The notes beneath the pieces were generated by a model that was not told where the DNA came from, made no database searches, and was given only the letters and a program-made list of their open reading frames with translations. The translations under genes and the position numbers were made by a program. This document shows positions 10,186-30,572 of a stretch of 41,719 nt of DNA, one piece after another; the stretch's first letter is position 1, and each line of letters begins with the position of its first letter. This DNA comes from Candidatus Nanohalalkaliarchaeum halalkaliphilum. Lineage in GTDB: Archaea > Nanohalarchaeota > Nanosalinia > Nanosalinales > Nanohalalkaliarchaeaceae. The DNA is taken from positions 1 through 41,719 of the forward strand of contig JALDAF010000003.1 of the NCBI GenBank assembly GCA_022729315.1, given 5' to 3'.

Positions 10186-10344
10186 GGGTCCATGGTCTAG
10201 TGGTCAGGACGTCGCCCTTACACGCCTGCCCAAGGAAGCAGGCGGCAGTTCCTGGACGGCCTTCAACCGTCGTCCGGCTGGCGCCTGAACCTAGGTAGAG
10301 GCTGAGCAAGGCGAAGATCGGTGGTTCAAATCCGCCTGGACCCA
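10186..10344 (+). tRNA. tRNA-Val (TAC anticodon) with intron
   Basis: The mature exons are 10186-10222 and 10309-10344. Acceptor GGGTCCA pairs with TGGACCC, the D arm is GGTCTAGTGGTCAGGAC, anticodon stem TCGCC (10212-10216) pairs with GGCGA (10310-10314), anticodon TAC is 10219-10221, and the T arm is GGTGG-TTCAAAT-CCGCC. Discriminator A is 10344; CCA is not encoded. The anticodon loop is interrupted after base 37 by an 86-base intron, the canonical archaeal position for the splicing endonuclease. A TATA box (GTATTTAAAATTC) lies about 40 bases upstream. Confidence 0.93.
10223..10308 (+). other. tRNA-Val intron (86 bases)
   Basis: It begins in the anticodon loop and carries a strong hairpin near its 5' end (GCCTGC pairing with GCAGGC across a short loop, 10224-10244). 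Removal restores a 73-base tRNA. I did not resolve the exact bulge-helix-bulge, so the ends could shift by one base since base 38 could be either C10223 or A10309. Confidence 0.75.
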
Positions 10345-10390
10345 CTGTACAGGATTTGAAGCCCGAGAAAACCGGCCCAGGTTTTCGCTG

Positions 10391-10635
10391 TTCAAATCCG
10401 CCTGGACCCATCAGAGCTGTGGATTTTTCTCTCCTCACATCTGCAACAGAAGTTCAGATTCAAATCCTCTTCTCCCGGGAGAACGAGGACCCAGAAACCG
10501 ATAAGGTTTCGACCGCCTGGACCCACTCCAGTCACGGAGTGGACACGCTTCGAAAAGGGGTTCTCCTGGAGAACCCCGGACAGAGATGTGTCGACTGGAT
10601 CTCCGGCCCGACGGTTCTGAATCTGCCTGGACTCA
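10391..10635. repeat. Array of partial copies of the tRNA-Val 3' end with intervening hairpins
   Basis: The last 20 bases of the tRNA recur exactly at 10391-10410. Further copies are 10459-10493 (TTCAAATCC and GGACCCA split by an insert containing the palindrome TTCTCCCGGGAGAA), 10508-10525 (TTCGACCGCCTGGACCCA) and 10615-10635 (diverged, ending CTGCCTGGACTCA). Hairpins come just before most copies: GAAAACC/GGTTTTC (10368-10388), GAAACC/GGTTTC (10494-10510), and GGGGTTCTC/GAGAACCCC (10557-10577). GGATTTGAA (10352-10360) is the reverse complement of the T-loop part. The 320 bases from 10345 to 10665 hold no protein gene. Reading: remnants of attachment sites at the tRNA 3' end. Confidence 0.8.
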
Positions 10636-10665
10636 TTGCTGAAGAGGGGTGTTGTGATAGTCGCC

Positions 10666-12423
10666 TCACTCGTCATCAGTCAGAACCAGTTCTTGATAGG
10701 TATCTTGAAATTCACGGAGGAATGACTGTCTGTCGGCTTCGGATGCGAATATTCTGATACGGTCATAACTGGTATGTGCGAATGATTCTGTGTCCGGGTC
10801 AGGTTCAGACACCTGTTTGTAGGAGATGCCAAGTCTGTCAATCGCGTCGGCAAAGCGTTTACCATCTCTTGCCCGGTAAGAGATCGTTCCACGTCTGTCC
10901 GTGTGGCCCCAATCCCATAGTGCTTGCGTCACGTAGCCTTCAACAAAGTCGGTCTGTTCAAACCGGGTTGAGATATAGGCTGGCGGTATATCTGTTTTGT
11001 TTTTGAAGCCATGTATCCTGTAAATACCGGTGAGACAGGAGGGGATCGTCACATGCACATTCTGTTTTCCTACCTCGTTATCCTGCCGCGCCTGTACTCG
11101 TTCCTTCGTTGATACGGGTAGTGGGACGTGTTCACCAAAAGTGTTGTATCGCTTATATGCAAGCCGCCGGATGGGTGCGTTCCGGTGCCTGTCAGAAAAT
11201 ACGTATCTCAGGCGATTTCCCCCGTACTTCTGGATTCGGCCTTCCAACAATCCGCTGTAAAACATCCCCTCCATATACGCTGTGATAGGAAATCGTGGCT
11301 TCCATAGTTTTCCTTTTCCCTTTGTTCCGGCCCAGTAAGCAGGAGGTTCTATCGGTATATCAAGATGTCTCATTTGATCCAGTAAGTCCTTGGATAGTAA
11401 TGAACGGCCTTGAGCGTACCGTCTTATTTTGTTCGCGGTATTTCCGATATTCGAGTGGACGTGATCTGATCCGTATCTGGGAGGTTCGCCGTGTTCCTGC
11501 CAGTAAATGGCCAGGGGATACGGCCATTCGACAAGATACGAGGGGGATAATGTCCATCGCAGATCTGTTTCCTCTGGATTATCCACTGCCTTCGCCAGCC
11601 GTGTCCGTGATCGGTTCTCCAGATGTTTTTGCATATCCCGCAGGCTGTCAATGATTACGTCCGGTGTATCAGTGAATGGATCAAGATAGTCTACCAGGTC
11701 ATCCACCGTTGTATGTCCGACCACTACGGCGGTAAGACTCTCTTCCAGGTCAAGAGGTAATTCACCCAATGGTAGATCCGGGTCTAAATCTAGATGTGAA
11801 TATACTGTGTCAACTGCTTCGTCTCGTGCTTCTATGTAAGGAGATCTGTAAAGTCGCTTCTCAACGTGTCCAACAAGCTCACGAGCTGTATCACGATCCA
11901 TGTATCCCGTAAGGTCTTCAACTAACTGTGTCTCCTGTTCTCCGAACAGAATATAGCTCTGTAGTGGACGCTTCAACTGTTCTGTAATATCCGTATAGAA
12001 CTCCCTGTCCACTGGATAAGCGTCTGATGCATGGTTGATATCCACCGAACGCTCCGCGACGGTTTCAAGTGTATCCTCCACCGCAGCAGCTTCTGTAAGA
12101 ATAAGATACCACGTTTGTGCGTGGACGTAATGAAACCCATCAAGGTTCAATCCCTCCTCGGTCGTCAGTAAATCCTGAGCGATATTCGCGTATCTGGACT
12201 GTTTTGACGCGCTCTCCAGTAGATCAGTTGTGTAATGTATTCTATCCTTTTCTTCCTCGATACGTACCGCCAAGGAGTGGACGTCGTCTATCGCGTCAGA
12301 ACAGGTATCCTGATATATACGTTCATACGTCTTTTCCCGTATCTCCTGCTCTAATCGGTCTTTTTTCTCTTCCAGTCCCCATCCAAAATACTGGTCAGAG
12401 GGGAGTTCCCACCACTGGATCAT
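10666..12423 (-). CDS. Unrecognised 585-residue protein of a tRNA-linked island
   Basis: Start ATG 12423 lies about 26 bases after a TATA-like TTTTAAGTAA. The protein is mostly helical with a charged N-terminal half (coiled-coil-like at 15-75) and no signal or membrane segment. Two similar blocks stand out in the C-terminal half: AYMEGMFYSGLLEGRIQKYG and DFVEGYVTQALWDWGHTDRR, each an aromatic-x-E-G helix followed by a beta-like segment, then LAYKRY or FADAIDRLGI. This recalls degenerate LAGLIDADG endonuclease repeats, but the match is weak. By eye the gene is richer in A+T codons than its neighbours, suggesting transfer. Located between tRNA-Val 3'-end copies, it may encode the element's DNA-processing enzyme (inference). 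No integrase signature seen. Confidence 0.75.
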   Translation of the reverse strand: MIQWWELPSDQYFGWGLEEKKDRLEQEIREKTYERIYQDTCSDAIDDVHSLAVRIEEEKDRIHYTTDLLESASKQSRYANIAQDLLTTEEGLNLDGFHYVHAQTWYLILTEAAAVEDTLETVAERSVDINHASDAYPVDREFYTDITEQLKRPLQSYILFGEQETQLVEDLTGYMDRDTARELVGHVEKRLYRSPYIEARDEAVDTVYSHLDLDPDLPLGELPLDLEESLTAVVVGHTTVDDLVDYLDPFTDTPDVIIDSLRDMQKHLENRSRTRLAKAVDNPEETDLRWTLSPSYLVEWPYPLAIYWQEHGEPPRYGSDHVHSNIGNTANKIRRYAQGRSLLSKDLLDQMRHLDIPIEPPAYWAGTKGKGKLWKPRFPITAYMEGMFYSGLLEGRIQKYGGNRLRYVFSDRHRNAPIRRLAYKRYNTFGEHVPLPVSTKERVQARQDNEVGKQNVHVTIPSCLTGIYRIHGFKNKTDIPPAYISTRFEQTDFVEGYVTQALWDWGHTDRRGTISYRARDGKRFADAIDRLGISYKQVSEPDPDTESFAHTSYDRIRIFASEADRQSFLREFQDTYQELVLTDDE

Positions 12424-12445
12424 GCATGACGCTCAGACTATGTTT

Positions 12446-12455
12446 ACTTAAAATG
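12446..12455 (-). promoter_or_regulatory. TATA-like box for the island gene
   Basis: The minus-strand reading CATTTTAAGTAAAC lies about 26 bases before ATG 12423 with no ribosome binding site, so the message is probably leaderless. Confidence 0.45.
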
Positions 12456-12554
12456 AAACGAACATTCCAACCTGTGGCCGGATACCGAGCAGGAAAAGAC
12501 ATCCTGAAAGCAAAATTCTACAGGAAAAGCGCTCCCTGAGGCGGTAAAGCGTTA

Positions 12555-12608
12555 TCTTCCAGTGGAAGAGCCTTCGACCGCTTGGACCTGTCTTTCACTG
12601 GAACAGTG
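12555..12608. repeat. Distal degraded copy of tRNA-Val 3' end with hairpins
   Basis: TTCGACCGCTTGGACCT at 12573-12589 matches the copy at 10508-10525 with few changes. It is directly preceded by hairpin TCTTCC-AGT-GGAAGA (12555-12569) and followed by CACTG-GAA-CAGTG (12596-12608) and a T run. With the tRNA copies on the other side, it brackets the 585-residue gene and gives an island of about 2.2 kb. The rest of 12424-12765 has no convincing protein gene. Confidence 0.6.
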
Positions 12609-12765: not shown

Positions 12766-13857
12766 ATGCCGGACGAGGCTGGAAAAGAAGAGAAGACGAT
12801 CGTATCGTTCAAGGTATGGAACAAGGAGAAGGAGGAGACAGAGCTCCATGCGTTGAAGCGGTACGTGGTTGAAGGGAAGCGGAACGGGCCGCACGTCGTG
12901 GTCAATGCCGGGTCGCATGGTGACGAGTTCCTGGCGATCGATGCGGCGAAGGAGCTGTATGAACGGCTGGAACCGGAGAAGGTTAACGGAAGAGTATCGA
13001 TCATCCCGGAGGCCAATATCTTTGCCGCGTTGAAGAACAAGCGGGAGACGCCGGAGCCCGAGTTTGAGCTGTACGAGTCCGAGGAACGGAATATGAACCG
13101 GTGTTTTGACAGTGTTGACCTGGTTGATGGGCCGGACGGCAATATCACTGAGCGGTTAGCGTACCACGTGCTGAAACTGGTGGTGAAGGCGGATTACTGT
13201 TTCGATCTTCATACTGCGACCGCTCCCGGGTACAAGATCGATCAGATCCGGGGGAAGACGAATCCCGAGTTCGGGAAGGATGTGCTGCAGGTACAGGAAC
13301 GGCTTATAAGGAACTCGGGTGTGGAGTATGTGATCAAGACGCCTCCACAGTATATCGGGGAAGGCGTGCTTGCAGGGGTTGCGCCGCTGCATGGTGTACC
13401 AGCGGTCACGGTCGAGATCGGTGGCGGTGCGTATTCCGAGGAGGAGCTGGAACGGTACGTCACCGTGTTGATGAACCTGATGAAGGAGGCAGGGTCGCTG
13501 TACGGTGAGCCGGACACGGTGAAGCAGAAGATCTACCGTGACCTGGAAGAGGTCTGGGCCTCGACCGCGGGAATGTATGAACCGGTCAAGGAACCGGGGG
13601 AAGCGGTGCGGAAAGGTGAAGCGCTTGGAGTTGTTACGAACGAGCGTGGTGAGCACGAGGTGGAGTCGCCGTTCGATGGTCTGGTGGAGTCGGTCCACCG
13701 CCAGGACTGGGTGAACGAGGGGACGCGCGTCTCGTACATCGCGATCAAGCAGGAGCGGACGTTCCTCGAGGCCGTGGCTGATGCATTCAGACGGTTGCTC
13801 CGGTCCTACACGGCACGGAAGGCGACACGGGAACGGGAAGGACTTCTCAAACTGTAG
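12766..13857 (+). CDS. Succinylglutamate desuccinylase/aspartoacylase-family zinc hydrolase (M14-like)
   Basis: 363 residues. The family removes acyl or amide groups from amino-acid derivatives and shares the carboxypeptidase A (M14) fold. Zinc ligands are GSHGDE (His51, Glu54) and DLHTA (His149); catalytic Glu217 lies in VEIGGG. Residues 270-335 form the C-terminal beta-barrel typical of AstE-like proteins (GMYEPVKEPGEAVRKGEALG). ATG 12766 follows GGAGGCG by seven bases, after an unusually long structured leader. The 3' end overlaps a convergent ATP-grasp gene by 11 bases. Beside four ATP-grasp genes it could remove what they attach (inference). The substrate cannot be read from sequence. 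Confidence 0.88.
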   Translation: MPDEAGKEEKTIVSFKVWNKEKEETELHALKRYVVEGKRNGPHVVVNAGSHGDEFLAIDAAKELYERLEPEKVNGRVSIIPEANIFAALKNKRETPEPEFELYESEERNMNRCFDSVDLVDGPDGNITERLAYHVLKLVVKADYCFDLHTATAPGYKIDQIRGKTNPEFGKDVLQVQERLIRNSGVEYVIKTPPQYIGEGVLAGVAPLHGVPAVTVEIGGGAYSEEELERYVTVLMNLMKEAGSLYGEPDTVKQKIYRDLEEVWASTAGMYEPVKEPGEAVRKGEALGVVTNERGEHEVESPFDGLVESVHRQDWVNEGTRVSYIAIKQERTFLEAVADAFRRLLRSYTARKATREREGLLKL

Positions 13858-14770
13858 TATCGTCTCCGGAAACTGTTTTCCCGTACATGTACGCCATCAC
13901 CCGGTCGTAGAGATCGGTTCCAACACGTTTCTCATCACCTTCCAGGGATGGTGCCGTATTGATCTCACCGATCACGAACCTGTCGCTGTCTGTCTCCTCG
14001 ATGATGTCGACGCCGCAGATATCCAGCCCGGACACCCGTGCCGCCTGGAGCGCTGTACGGCGCATCGTTTCCGGTGCATCGAACCGTTCCATGTGGCCGC
14101 CAACCGCGACGTTGGAACGCCACTCCTCGTCGCCGCCAACCCGTTTGTAGGAATAGGTGTCGTCCCCGATCACGACGATACGGATGTCTTCTCCCGGGTT
14201 CTCCACGTATTCCTGGAGGCAGATATCCTGGTCGAACAGGGTGAGGGTGTCAACCAGTGCCGCAAGGTCTTCCGGGTCCTGCACGCGCATCACACCCTGT
14301 CCGCCGTACCCCGAGCTCAGCTTGACCACCAGCGGATAGCCGAGTGCGTTACCGGCACGCTCCGCTTCCCCTGTGGACAGCATGTACACGGACTGTGGGA
14401 CGGGGACTCCGGCTCTTCCCAGTATCTTGATCGTGTAGAATTTGTTTGACGCGATGAACAGGGAGCGAGACGCTACCTGGGTGTAGACGCCGTGATCGTG
14501 CAGGATATCAGGTAGACGTTCCGCGTACAGCATGTCCGGGTCGAAGAGCCGGAGAAACAAGCAGTCGAACGTCGTCAGATCGGTGTCACGGTACCGTATC
14601 CCGGTACCGTCCCCGTACACCAGATGGATGTTCTCGAGTGGGACGCCAAGAACCGTGTCAAAATACTGTTCCGCGGCATGCAGGAACGCCGGGTGTTCGT
14701 CGGATTCGCTTCCGTACAGGATAGCACACCGGACCTCATCTCCGTTTGCGCCGACGCTCATACCATCCAT
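13847..14770 (-). CDS. RimK-like ATP-grasp ligase (1)
   Basis: 307 residues. ATP-grasp ligases activate a carboxylate with ATP and join it to an amine. Visible: Lys110, Lys150 in YPLVVKLSSGYGGQGVM with its glycine-rich loop, LQEYVENPGEDIRIVVIGDD, Asp255 in CGVDII, and metal ligands Glu269 and Asn271 in GEINTAP, so it should be active. Its ATG overlaps the stop of the DUF1704 gene by one base (TGATG), so the two are translationally coupled. Close paralogue of the gene at 17693 (shared VILYG-like start, DTLTLFDQDICLQ-type block). Likely adds amino acids to a peptide or protein end. Confidence 0.88.
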   Translation of the reverse strand: MDGMSVGANGDEVRCAILYGSESDEHPAFLHAAEQYFDTVLGVPLENIHLVYGDGTGIRYRDTDLTTFDCLFLRLFDPDMLYAERLPDILHDHGVYTQVASRSLFIASNKFYTIKILGRAGVPVPQSVYMLSTGEAERAGNALGYPLVVKLSSGYGGQGVMRVQDPEDLAALVDTLTLFDQDICLQEYVENPGEDIRIVVIGDDTYSYKRVGGDEEWRSNVAVGGHMERFDAPETMRRTALQAARVSGLDICGVDIIEETDSDRFVIGEINTAPSLEGDEKRVGTDLYDRVMAYMYGKTVSGDDTTV

Positions 14771-15855
14771 CAGTCCGGAGTGATGTGCTGCACTGCCTGT
14801 TCGTACGCCTCAAGATGTTGTGAGCGTGGAATCGCGGGAGAACGGTCCTGGAGCTCGGGCACGGTGTCCATGTCCTCTACACTGACCTTTCCAATATATA
14901 AAGCGTCCGCAAGTTCAGGCCGGTTCTTCAGTATGGAATATCCCTGGAAGTAGATATGGTCCTTGATAAACCCTCCCGGCTGTGCCGTATCCTGCAGCCC
15001 GCGTTTCACCCGGTACGTCCGGATGAACGCCAGGCGCTGGTCCAGTCCTTTCTCCCGCATCATTTGGTACAGGTCGAAGAACGGAAGGTCTGCATTGTTG
15101 ATAGCGATGACGCGGGACGTGATCCGTGGCAACGTGTCATCGAACACGCCGACCTGTGACTCGTTGAACGTTGGCAACCCCTCCTCTGCCACCTGGTATC
15201 CCTGCGTCCCATAGATCAGTGCCGCGTTGTTCTGCTCGATACCGTTATGGGTACGGACAGAATGCGTGGACTCATGTATCAGCACACGTTTCGCCTGCAT
15301 GATCCCGTATTCGCCGTTCTCAGGGATCATGATGGTGCGTTTCCGCGGATGGTTCCGTATCGCCTCCGCCTCCACCAGTGTACAGTCGTAGTCCATCCCC
15401 AGCAGGTCGAACATGTTGTGATACACTTCCCGCAGCTGTTCCGCGGAGAGACGTGGACCGTCCTCATCGTCAGGGATATGCTTCGGGTTCAACAGGTTGT
15501 CCGCCTCCTCCACCATCGCCGCATCCGGAAACCCGTAGATTTCCCGGGACACGCCGGTGATGTCCGTGCTCCCGATGGCCTCGATGATCCGCTTCCGCCC
15601 CTTCAAACCGGCCACGAACCGGTCCGCCAGCAGGTCGTCTCCCAGCGCTGCTTTGATATCCTGGATCAGCCGGGCCGCCCGATTCTGATCCTTCGGTGTG
15701 AACGTCCGGTACTCGAACCGGGGATTATACTCCCTGTTCTCCTCCACGTTGTTGAAGAACCCGGCCTTCTCCTCCTCATAGTTCAACGGGTACAGGTAGT
15801 CGTAAAAATCCAGGAGATCCAGCGCGTCCTCAACCAGGTGTATCAGCGAAGCCAT
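14770..15855 (-). CDS. DUF1704 (MATCAP/QEGLA-like) zinc carboxypeptidase-like protein
   Basis: 361 residues. The family includes eukaryotic MATCAP, which removes the C-terminal tyrosine of tubulin, and the bacterial QEGLA proteins. Family blocks seen: SREIYGFPDAAMVEEA (103-118), a REVYHNMFDLLG helix, and HESTHSVRTHNG (194-205) followed by VAEEGLPTF (222-230). Zinc ligands are His194 and His198 with Glu195 catalytic, and a Glu in the EEGL block third. Eukaryotic members have HExxxH; here one residue fewer gives HExxH. Cytoplasmic. First gene of an operon with ATP-grasp 1. The start lies about 26 bases from a palindromic TATA box shared with the divergent ATP-grasp 2. Confidence 0.82.
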   Translation of the reverse strand: MASLIHLVEDALDLLDFYDYLYPLNYEEEKAGFFNNVEENREYNPRFEYRTFTPKDQNRAARLIQDIKAALGDDLLADRFVAGLKGRKRIIEAIGSTDITGVSREIYGFPDAAMVEEADNLLNPKHIPDDEDGPRLSAEQLREVYHNMFDLLGMDYDCTLVEAEAIRNHPRKRTIMIPENGEYGIMQAKRVLIHESTHSVRTHNGIEQNNAALIYGTQGYQVAEEGLPTFNESQVGVFDDTLPRITSRVIAINNADLPFFDLYQMMREKGLDQRLAFIRTYRVKRGLQDTAQPGGFIKDHIYFQGYSILKNRPELADALYIGKVSVEDMDTVPELQDRSPAIPRSQHLEAYEQAVQHITPD

Positions 15856-15877
15856 GCAGTAACTACAGACCTCATAG

Positions 15878-15887
15878 GTTTTAAAAC
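15878..15887. promoter_or_regulatory. Palindromic TATA box shared by the DUF1704 operon and ATP-grasp 2
   Basis: GTTTTAAAAC is a perfect palindrome, 23 bases from ATG 15855 on the minus side and 37 from ATG 15924 on the plus side. The plus transcript would have a leader of 10-20 bases carrying the ribosome binding site GAGGAGG; the minus one would be leaderless. Confidence 0.6.
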
Positions 15888-15923
15888 TCCCTCAATCAAC
15901 AGTAGTCCAGAGGAGGACACCAC

Positions 15924-16796
15924 ATGAACATCGGAATAGCAGGTACGGACCGACAGCAGGAAGAGGACTGGATCATGGACGAAATCACGGAACGCGGCCA
16001 CGATGCCGTGTTCATCGATCCGTCAGACGTGTCATACGTCCTGTCGGACGGCGATCTCGACATCCGGTACAGCGGCAACTCGTTAAACGATCTGGACGTG
16101 GTGTTCGTCCGCCGTACCCGGTTCGACCTGGAGGCCAGTCGCGACCTGGTTGCGGCACTGGACACGATCGGTGTTCGCACCATCGAACGGAAGGACGTGT
16201 TCTACAACCCATTATCCAAGTTCATCAGCCTCCTCAGCTTTGTTGATACCGAGATCGATGCTATCGCCATCCCATCAACAGGGATCGCGAAATGCCGGGA
16301 GGATGCGGGGCAGATCGCGGACAGAATCGGCTACCCGCTTATCACGAAACCGATCGCCGGCCGGGAAGGAGAAGGCGTCCAGCGGATCGACGACGCTGCA
16401 GAACTTGACACCGTGCTGGCCGATGCTGCGTTCCCGATGCTGCTCCAGGAGTTCCTGGATGTTGAGGAAGAGTACCGCATCCTTGTCGTTGGTGACACGG
16501 CACTGGGCGCGGTGACGAAGGAACCGATCGAGGGGGACGATGATTCCGTGGCCCGGAACTTCGCGCAGGGGGCCGAGTTCAATCCTGCGGACGTCGACCA
16601 CCTGTTCGAACCGGCCGTTCAGATCGCGCAGGCCATGAACATCGAACTCGCCGGTGTAGATATCGTCAAGACCACGGACGGTGACTACTACGAGATCGAA
16701 TGCAACCGCTGCCCACAGTTCAAGGGATTCACGCAGGCACACGAGGATGTGGACGTTCCCGCGCACATCGTGGATTACATCGAGGAACAGGTGTAA
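15924..16796 (+). CDS. RimK-like ATP-grasp ligase (2)
   Basis: 290 residues, from ATG after GAGGAGGACACC. Catalytic features are present: Lys99, Lys142 in YPLITKPIAGREGEGVQ with glycine-rich loop, LQEFLDVEEEYRILVVGD, Asp246 in AGVDIV, and Glu259/Asn261 in YEIECNRCP. It is diverged from paralogues 1 and 3, so probably a different acceptor. Divergent from the DUF1704 gene with a shared promoter, hence likely co-regulated. The downstream Vms1-like gene has its own TATA box. Reaction: ATP-dependent amide bond formation; substrates unknown. Confidence 0.88.
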   Translation: MNIGIAGTDRQQEEDWIMDEITERGHDAVFIDPSDVSYVLSDGDLDIRYSGNSLNDLDVVFVRRTRFDLEASRDLVAALDTIGVRTIERKDVFYNPLSKFISLLSFVDTEIDAIAIPSTGIAKCREDAGQIADRIGYPLITKPIAGREGEGVQRIDDAAELDTVLADAAFPMLLQEFLDVEEEYRILVVGDTALGAVTKEPIEGDDDSVARNFAQGAEFNPADVDHLFEPAVQIAQAMNIELAGVDIVKTTDGDYYEIECNRCPQFKGFTQAHEDVDVPAHIVDYIEEQV

Positions 16797-23671: not shown

Positions 23672-25123
23672 ATGCGCTGGACCGTTGTCACCTACTACGT
23701 AGGACTCTTCCTCAGGATTTTCTCAGTGTTACTGCTGGTACCGGTCGCTGTCGGCCGGTACTACGGTGAAAGCTTTGTCGTGATGGAGCCGTTCCTCATC
23801 GCATCGTTTCTTGCGATCGTCTTCGGCTCCCTGCTGACACGGGTCGGGGCAGACCATCGTCCGGAAACCGTGGAGGCCATGGCGATCGCAACGTTTGCAT
23901 GGATCCTGGCGGTCGGACTGGGGGCGATACCGGTGTACACGATCGCGGACGTGTCGATCGTGGACGCGTATTTCGACGCGATGGCAGGGTTCACAACGAC
24001 CGGGATGGATATCATACCGGCCGCGGTACTTGCGGAGTTACCATATTCGCTCCTGTTCTGGCGGGTGTTCATGCAGTGGATCGGCGGACTGGGGATCCTT
24101 ACATTCTTCGTGATGGTGCTCTCCGAGTCCGGCGGTGTGGCCAGTAAACTGGTGTCGCAGGAGGCGAACAAGACAGATTCCGGGGTTATCCGGCCATCCC
24201 TGTTCAACGCCATCAAATCCATGTGGTATGTCTACATCGTTCTGACCATCATCCAGGCGATCCTGCTGTACATGCTGGCGGTTCCCGCGTTCCACGCGGT
24301 CGGACATGCGATGGCAACCCTTCCCACCGGTGGATTCACCACGACAGGAGACTTTGCAGGGATGATGGGTGGTGGCGGCACCCAGGCCGTGCTGACCGTG
24401 TTCATGTTTCTGGGAGCAACTAACTTTCTACTGATCTATGCGCTGTTTCAGGGGGATATCTGGCGCATGATCCGGGACTTCGAGTTCCGCGTATATTTCA
24501 GTGTGTTCGCGGTTGCACTGGCACTCATCGCACTGGACCTGATTGTGAACACGGGGAGAGGATTCCAGGAAGCAGTCTCAACATCACTATTTCATACAGC
24601 AAGCATCGTAAGCTCTTCCGGATTTACGCTTGAGGCTGTTGGGGAGTTTCCAACGTTCTCCAAGGCACTGATCGTTATAATCATGTTTATCGGCGGGTCA
24701 CTCGGCTCCACCACCGGCGGTTTCAAGATGCTCAGGTTCGGGGTCATGTTTAAAGTGGTCCGACAGCACGTCAAATCGCTGACACTTCCGCCCACGGTGA
24801 TGAACCCGGTCGTGGTGAAGGGACGCATCCTCAAGGACCGCGAACTCATCGAGATCACCTCGTTCTTCTTCATCTGGCTCGGTGTGATCGTGACCGGCGG
24901 ACTGATCACGATCTGGTTTTCGCCTCACGGCGTTACGGACGCGATCCAGCTTATGACGTCCGCGGTCGGGACGATGGGTCCGACATTCATCACGGGGGAG
25001 GAGCTCCGGCAGCTTCCCGGAATCGTCAAGATCTCTCTTTCCCTCGGCATGCTTGCTGGCCGTCTAGAGATGCTACCTATCCTCGTCCTCCTGAACCGGG
25101 GGCTGGGACGGTGGATCCGGTAA
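23672..25123 (+). CDS. trkH: Potassium uptake protein TrkH
   Basis: 483 residues from ATG 23672 with AAGGAGAG upstream. The four pore-loop signatures are seen in order: FTTTGMD (107-113), GGFTTTGDF (about 220-228), SSSGFTL (about 318-324) and GTMGPTF near the C-terminus, plus GSLGSTTGGFKMLRF. The last loop has M-G-P in place of the usual V-G-L. The protein forms the membrane pore for K+, gated by TrkA. Halophiles using a salt-in strategy depend on it. Co-transcribed with the MscS gene; trkA lies 1.3 kb downstream past two pilin genes. Confidence 0.95.
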   Translation: MRWTVVTYYVGLFLRIFSVLLLVPVAVGRYYGESFVVMEPFLIASFLAIVFGSLLTRVGADHRPETVEAMAIATFAWILAVGLGAIPVYTIADVSIVDAYFDAMAGFTTTGMDIIPAAVLAELPYSLLFWRVFMQWIGGLGILTFFVMVLSESGGVASKLVSQEANKTDSGVIRPSLFNAIKSMWYVYIVLTIIQAILLYMLAVPAFHAVGHAMATLPTGGFTTTGDFAGMMGGGGTQAVLTVFMFLGATNFLLIYALFQGDIWRMIRDFEFRVYFSVFAVALALIALDLIVNTGRGFQEAVSTSLFHTASIVSSSGFTLEAVGEFPTFSKALIVIIMFIGGSLGSTTGGFKMLRFGVMFKVVRQHVKSLTLPPTVMNPVVVKGRILKDRELIEITSFFFIWLGVIVTGGLITIWFSPHGVTDAIQLMTSAVGTMGPTFITGEELRQLPGIVKISLSLGMLAGRLEMLPILVLLNRGLGRWIR

Positions 25124-30527: not shown

Positions 30528-30572
30528 GAAAATCGAGGATTTTCTTATCTTCGATTCAATTCGCATTGAATC
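30528..30572 (-). promoter_or_regulatory. Tandem hairpins between rps28e and rpl24e
   Basis: In the mRNA, GATTCAAT-GCGA-ATTGAATC (30572-30553) is a perfect 8-bp stem with a GNRA tetraloop right after the S28e stop; GAAAATC-CTC-GATTTTC (30544-30528) is a perfect 7-bp stem. No T run follows. They may slow decay, set mRNA cleavage or tune L24e output. Confidence 0.5.

Follow-up and report, generated by a model that had tools for sequence, protein, structure and literature searches.

The tyrT gene of Escherichia coli is followed by the rtT repeats, tandem units of ~178 bp after one tRNA gene, each terminating in a repeat of the 3' end of that tRNA; these repeats are not known to have a matched complementary arm. 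The tRNA-anchored modules described here are likewise tandem units ending in a tRNA 3' end, a likeness of plan only, with no claim of homology; unlike rtT, they occur at many tRNA genes and in many genera, and are palindromic units of ~55–110 nt. Integrase att duplications and islands of the SSV/pNOB8 type also share features with the modules, namely tRNA 3' ends in duplicate that enclose foreign genes, and empty sites in relatives, whereas the modules are without a linked integrase, mostly 55–110 nt long, palindromic and found at the majority of tRNAs. The Rickettsia palindromic elements (RPE) are likewise short palindromes inserted in varied genes throughout a reduced genome, but the modules lie at tRNA 3' ends with target duplication; the RPE hallmark of in-frame insertion in protein genes was not seen for tRNA modules. 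The attC sites of integrons carry core boxes R' (GTTRRRY) and R'' (RYYYAAC); judged by eye, the module arms (GTTCRAATC and GATTYGAAC or GATTTGAT) do not conform to this consensus. Like the modules, attC arrays and CALINs are tandem imperfect palindromes, sometimes with small cargo genes between, but the modules lack intI and the GTTRRRY core and are anchored to many tRNA genes. Such arrays have been reported in Archaea too, in a paper that does not mention tRNA (PMC9668308). Finally, archaeal tRNA introns are spread by mobile elements, with one 1.8-kb recombinase-bearing insert containing a 5' tRNA fragment (Sugahara et al. 2012, PMC3293823). That case resembles ours in the reshaping of archaeal tRNA genes by mobile DNA, where foreign DNA separates duplicated parts of the tRNA, and differs in that the modules measure about 55–110 nt and carry 3' ends. 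As regards the bulge-helix-bulge (BHB) of archaeal introns, the folds examined at module borders form a continuous T-loop helix in which two 3-nt bulges around 4 bp are not apparent. In the open-access literature consulted, neither att duplications nor palindromic elements nor integrons are described as having a target-matched palindrome, and the nanohaloarchaeal papers among it make no mention of such repeats.

The window (41,719 nt of contig JALDAF010000003.1) belongs to a nanohaloarchaeal MAG of 1.13 Mb that is 76% complete (G000). Its array follows a single intron-containing tRNA-Val(UAC) gene on the plus strand (10186–10344; Rfam RF00005, 53.9 bits), with exon 1 at 10186–10222, an intron of 86 nt at 10223–10308 and exon 2 at 10309–10344. 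Anticodon and exon junction were confirmed by intronless orthologues beside the same herA-like gene; the intron caused ARAGORN to miss any tRNA in the window, while Rfam detects the gene. The repeated tRNA-Val 3' ends of the original prediction are real and far above chance, and hairpins precede the copies. The 21-nt 3' end of the tRNA, GTTCAAATCCGCCTGGACCCA, gave two matches with at most 3 mismatches against 0.00 expected from dinucleotide shuffles, and a diverged 18-mer gave three against 0.06, one of which, at 23900, is on the opposite strand and unrelated.

Five modules, all on the plus strand, make up the array. Module 1 (10345–10410, 66 nt) contains the arm GGATTTGAA at 10352–10360, a hairpin at 10367–10386 and, at 10390–10410, an exact (21/21) repeat of the tRNA end, and folds as single-strand DNA with a z of -3.3. 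Module 2 (10411–10493, 83 nt) has a GGATTT arm at 10421–10426 and a copy interrupted by a palindrome (GATTCAAATCC at 10457–10467, then the palindrome TTCTCCCGGGAGAA, then GGACCCA at 10487–10493), a type of interruption also present in G014 (L108/L110) and G008 (L113/L115). In module 3 (10494–10525), a hairpin GAAACC..GGTTTC at 10494–10510 overlaps a 15/21 copy at 10505–10525, and module 4 (10526–10635, 110 nt) has hairpins at 10523–10542 and 10557–10577 ahead of another 15/21 copy at 10615–10635. Module 5 (12539–12590) is degenerate, with a GCGGT arm, the hairpin TCTTCCAGTGGAAGA at 12555–12569 and the copy TTCGACCGCTTGGACC at 12573–12588, which has 15/16 identity to the copy at 10508; in its fold, GCGGT pairs with ACCGC around the hairpin (z -1.8). 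Adjoining the array is a cluster with an AstE/AspA-like gene, two RimK-like ATP-grasp genes and a MATCAP-like peptidase gene (12766–16796).

Between modules 4 and 5, the sole gene-sized ORF is an orphan of 585 aa on the minus strand (10666–12423), and the description of it as a single unrecognised gene held: no match was found in Pfam, NCBIfam, PHROGs, PDB, 60 relatives, IMG/VR, phages or plasmids, and PADLOC returned only a meaningless hit (E 0.29). Rather than ordinary codon use, we found a compositionally foreign gene, with a GC3 of 0.48 and a codon-adaptation-like index (CAI-like) of 0.495, the medians of 122 ORFs being 0.685 for both. Foreign-looking genes lie between copies elsewhere too. 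The tRNA-Leu(GAG) array of G000 encloses, with modules on both sides, an orphan of 231 aa (GC3 0.375, CAI-like 0.519) for which searches, in fewer places than for the 585-aa ORF, gave no relatives. At tRNA-Pro of G014, a ribbon-helix-helix (RHH) antitoxin and ParE toxin pair lies between modules and a 21/21 tRNA-end copy, and at tRNA-Pro of G008 an unknown gene and a GNAT (acetyltransferase) gene precede a 16/21 copy.

The array is one instance of a pattern seen across the genome. Twenty tRNA genes of G000, an incomplete list from a genome read by stretches, were examined for a repeat, within 350 nt, of the gene's own final 21 nt with at least 15/21 matches. Own copies occurred downstream of 15 of the 20 and upstream of none, the remaining five being without a clear copy, and tails of other tRNAs occurred downstream in 1 of 130 comparisons. 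Modules are about 55–110 nt long, always downstream and on the strand of the tRNA, and each ends in the 3' end of its own host. Typically, a leader (a small hairpin such as TATCNNNGATATGC, or other) is followed by the reverse complement of the T-loop, for example GGATTTGAA, then by a hairpin, often GAA..TTCG, and then by the T arm and acceptor 3' strand with the discriminator base. Every clear copy thus forms an imperfect palindrome with this complementary arm, the copy being one side of it and the T-loop complement the other. Perfect hairpins reach 3.30/kb in arrays, against 0.39/kb elsewhere and 0.28/kb in simulated sequence, and module folds are stable (mean z -2.4; z < -2 in 16 of 26), with stems out of register in a MAFFT alignment of modules. 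In G000 arrays with at least two copies, the last copy never resembles the tRNA sequence more than the first does. Exact tandem duplicates exist among the Gly modules and between LeuCAA modules 1 and 3, while LeuCAA module 2 and the LeuB module have a common body with different tails, each the end of its own tRNA. Free-standing GAA..TTCG hairpins off tRNA genes (window 30528–30544, L008:3683 and L014:7672–7701) are ~7-fold above simulation, some of them between ribosomal protein genes.

Modules extend to other genera. G001, from another genus of the same family, has them at about 6 of 17 tRNAs, whereas none occurred at the sampled tRNAs of G002–G005 (sister families). A search with a T-loop palindrome pattern found modules in G007, G008, G014, G017, G018, G023 and G025; of the loci read, nearly all directly follow a tRNA gene and terminate in its tail, intact or interrupted, the G007 match having no tRNA copy upstream in the stretch read. 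In G017 the modules of two tRNA-Ser genes are identical, and in G014 those of another two are nearly so, in both cases with unrelated flanks, and the leader TATCNNNGATATGC and hairpin GAA..TTCG recur across unrelated tRNAs and genera. Outside the order, G044 has ~100-nt units of similar plan after two tRNA-Gln genes and other tRNAs, and two more genomes of its family gave matches at the level of the pattern. For the type-b pattern, which represents one module subtype, genuine modules among 84,980 genomes/species were confined to Nanohaloarchaeota, and viral contigs of IMG/VR had none. In G044, a motif near GAGCGAAGCGA follows many tRNA 3'-end copies (L127–L129).

Comparison of the locus among relatives, as proposed in the original prediction, revealed sites with and without modules. 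Throughout the order, tRNA-Val is found next to a herA-like gene and pth2; in nine relatives no copy follows the tRNA and the start of pth2 lies 79–196 nt downstream, in G001 exactly one module of 75 nt intervenes before pth2, and in G000 there are three copies, one interrupted copy and the foreign-looking orphan gene, then the degenerate fifth copy. By motif, pth2 of G000 was not found in the stretches read. Similarly, in G025 tRNA-Gly(UCC) contains an intron filled with a hairpin and is followed by a module, whereas that of G016 (same genus), G018 and G024 has neither, and that of G019 shows neither intron nor module over the short stretch examined. The gain of modules is lineage-specific, although the flanks of orthologous filled and empty sites are too diverged for an exact insertion boundary to be demonstrable. 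We dropped tRNA-Arg of G023 and G020 as a candidate clean empty site, its flanks being too diverged. The tRNA-anchored island of the original prediction stands in three respects: an island-like insertion lies beside a tRNA, a gene of foreign appearance sits between the copies, and orthologous sites are empty. It is not special to tRNA-Val, since modules occur at most G000 tRNAs and in other genera.

The modules look like an undescribed family of tiny tRNA-targeted inserts and not like one local island. We give an even chance to the reading that such tRNA-anchored arrays, of which this locus is one among many, consist of palindromic elements that do not move autonomously and have inserted at tRNA 3' ends. 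In this reading, a non-autonomous hairpin about 45–60 nt long would insert at the T-arm/3' end of a tRNA gene, with duplication of the last ~21 nt of the host tRNA, so that the upstream copy would remain a working tRNA and the downstream copy would end the module. Repeated insertion beside the tRNA would stack modules, and foreign genes could become trapped between them, either brought by the same process or received by an array that serves as a tolerated landing site. We infer the act of insertion itself, its polarity and the involvement of a trans-acting recombinase or transposase. Non-autonomous insertion explains gain, tail identity, stacking and shared bodies; however, gene conversion between isoacceptors could also yield shared bodies, which are thus support for movement and not proof of it.

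The weakest point of the insertion reading is the fit of the complementary arm to each host tRNA, which a mobile body alone does not explain. The arm is GATTTGA where the tRNA has A57 and GATTCGA where it has G57 (32:0 versus 0:6; Fisher 3.6e-7, uncorrected for relatedness among modules), and it also follows T-loop position 57 in the Val orthologue pair. Because the collecting pattern, used for part of the set, allowed both arm forms, selection of loci is not the cause of this match. Beyond the loop, the match of the arm to its own T-stem was not significant (p 0.11). Relative to the host tRNA, 35 changes affected just the arm, 16 just the copy and none was compensatory; one-sided changes of this kind would be expected if modules decay once inserted. 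Most simply, the tRNA would set the arm when the module forms, with pairing not visibly maintained later. An arm fitted to each host without selection would also follow if the palindromes were born in replication, by template switching or slippage at the tRNA's own T arm, and multiplied by unequal crossing over with no mobile element involved; the exact tandem duplicates (Gly; LeuCAA modules 1 and 3) and the running of the pattern through one order agree with this origin. We nevertheless consider it unlikely, as the GAA..TTCG hairpin and leader TATCNNNGATATGC recur at unrelated tRNAs and genera, the same body is found at different loci with other tails, and the foreign-looking genes between modules are left unexplained.

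Classic att duplication, in which viruses or islands integrated via tyrosine integrases and the arrays are stacked attL/attR scars with foreign genes as remnants, appears decidedly improbable. SSV1-type integration leaves a tRNA 3'-end repeat (PMC3293823), and direct repeats of tRNA 3' ends border the inserts on both sides as in att duplication (10390–10410, 10505–10525, 10615–10635 and 12573–12588), with foreign-looking genes between copies and empty sites in relatives. On the other hand, most modules, at 55–110 nt, have no room for an element, one hairpin plan is found at many different tRNAs, and an arm tied to the T-loop is not predicted by ordinary att duplication. Nor do tyrosine recombinase genes track the modules. 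PF00589 was not found in G000, G001 (78% complete) or the module-bearing G017 (96%), nor was any tyrosine recombinase in module-bearing G007, G018 or G025, several of these genomes being incomplete, and it was present in G003, G004 and G016, where no module was seen. The Y1 transposase PF01797 was absent from all 14 nanohaloarchaea searched and occurred, among the genomes searched, only in G044, G127 and G191, leaving no mobile enzyme linked to modules among the Y1 transposases and tyrosine recombinases searched. The arrays thus do not read as scars of one integrating element, given the same modules genome-wide and in other genera, recombinases that do not track them and arms that match the T-loop.

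Integron-like capture without intI is similarly unlikely. Here, a module would fold as single-stranded DNA, its arm and T-arm copy would recreate a T-loop site, and a putative recombinase recognising tRNA genes would insert the module, with or without cargo, at a matching tRNA; if so, tRNA genes would be the integration platforms of the genome. Functional RNA trailers, co-transcribed with the tRNA for 3' maturation, termination or tRNA quality control and with an arm that sequesters the spare 3' end, would suit the invariable downstream position and strand, the stable folds and the T-loop covariation between tRNA types, yet they seem very doubtful, being absent from sampled sister-family tRNAs, from orthologous tRNAs and, as a clear copy, from five of 20 G000 tRNAs, and the absence of compensatory changes among 51 one-sided ones has weakened the suggestion that the modules are tRNA-like and read as RNA. 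We rejected chance, assembly error and an island confined to tRNA-Val, since modules are also present in the single-contig genomes G008, G014 and G017.

If the modules are mobile, tRNA genes across an archaeal order would be repeated docking sites for elements of roughly 100 nt or less, offering a testable route for single-gene gain (toxin-antitoxin, acetyltransferase, orphan) in reduced, host-dependent archaea, and their movement may bear on the interruption of archaeal tRNA genes. The modules also caution against taking tRNA 3'-end repeats in these genomes for provirus borders.

Several tRNA genes are also interrupted internally. Introns of tRNA-Val come and go across the order, tRNA-Val of G010 and G016 has a 32–33-nt D-arm insert (L265; L269), and in G000 the D arm of a tRNA-Leu is interrupted by a hairpin (L008:3043–3163). 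The tRNA introns at L018, L019, L020 and L121 hold GAA..TTC-type hairpins like those of the 3' modules.

A second repeated element, GCCTGCCC(N)RRGAAGC(A/C)GGCGGCAGTTC followed by a hairpin, has four copies in G000 and none in G001. Its sites are the tRNA-Val intron (window 10223–10262), L014:10593–10640, L021 (C62:41273–41300) and L022:1037–1064, and its contexts, with gene names assigned by eye, are the tRNA-Val intron, the 3' end of pheS, a position between genes and, in frame, a suhB-like gene; this in-frame copy is the PK element and is different from the tRNA modules. Bases downstream of the hairpin are complementary to its loop (AGGAA/TTCCT, GAGAA/TTCTC, AAGAA/TTCTT), which suggests a pseudoknot. 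Repeats of the neighbouring gene end, of about 42 bp and 28 bp, flank the element (L014:10540–10745; L021:1050–1120) and resemble the tRNA 3'-end duplications. The tRNA-Lys intron at L236:11034–11053 contains a GCCTGCC..GCAGGCGG motif resembling this pseudoknot element.
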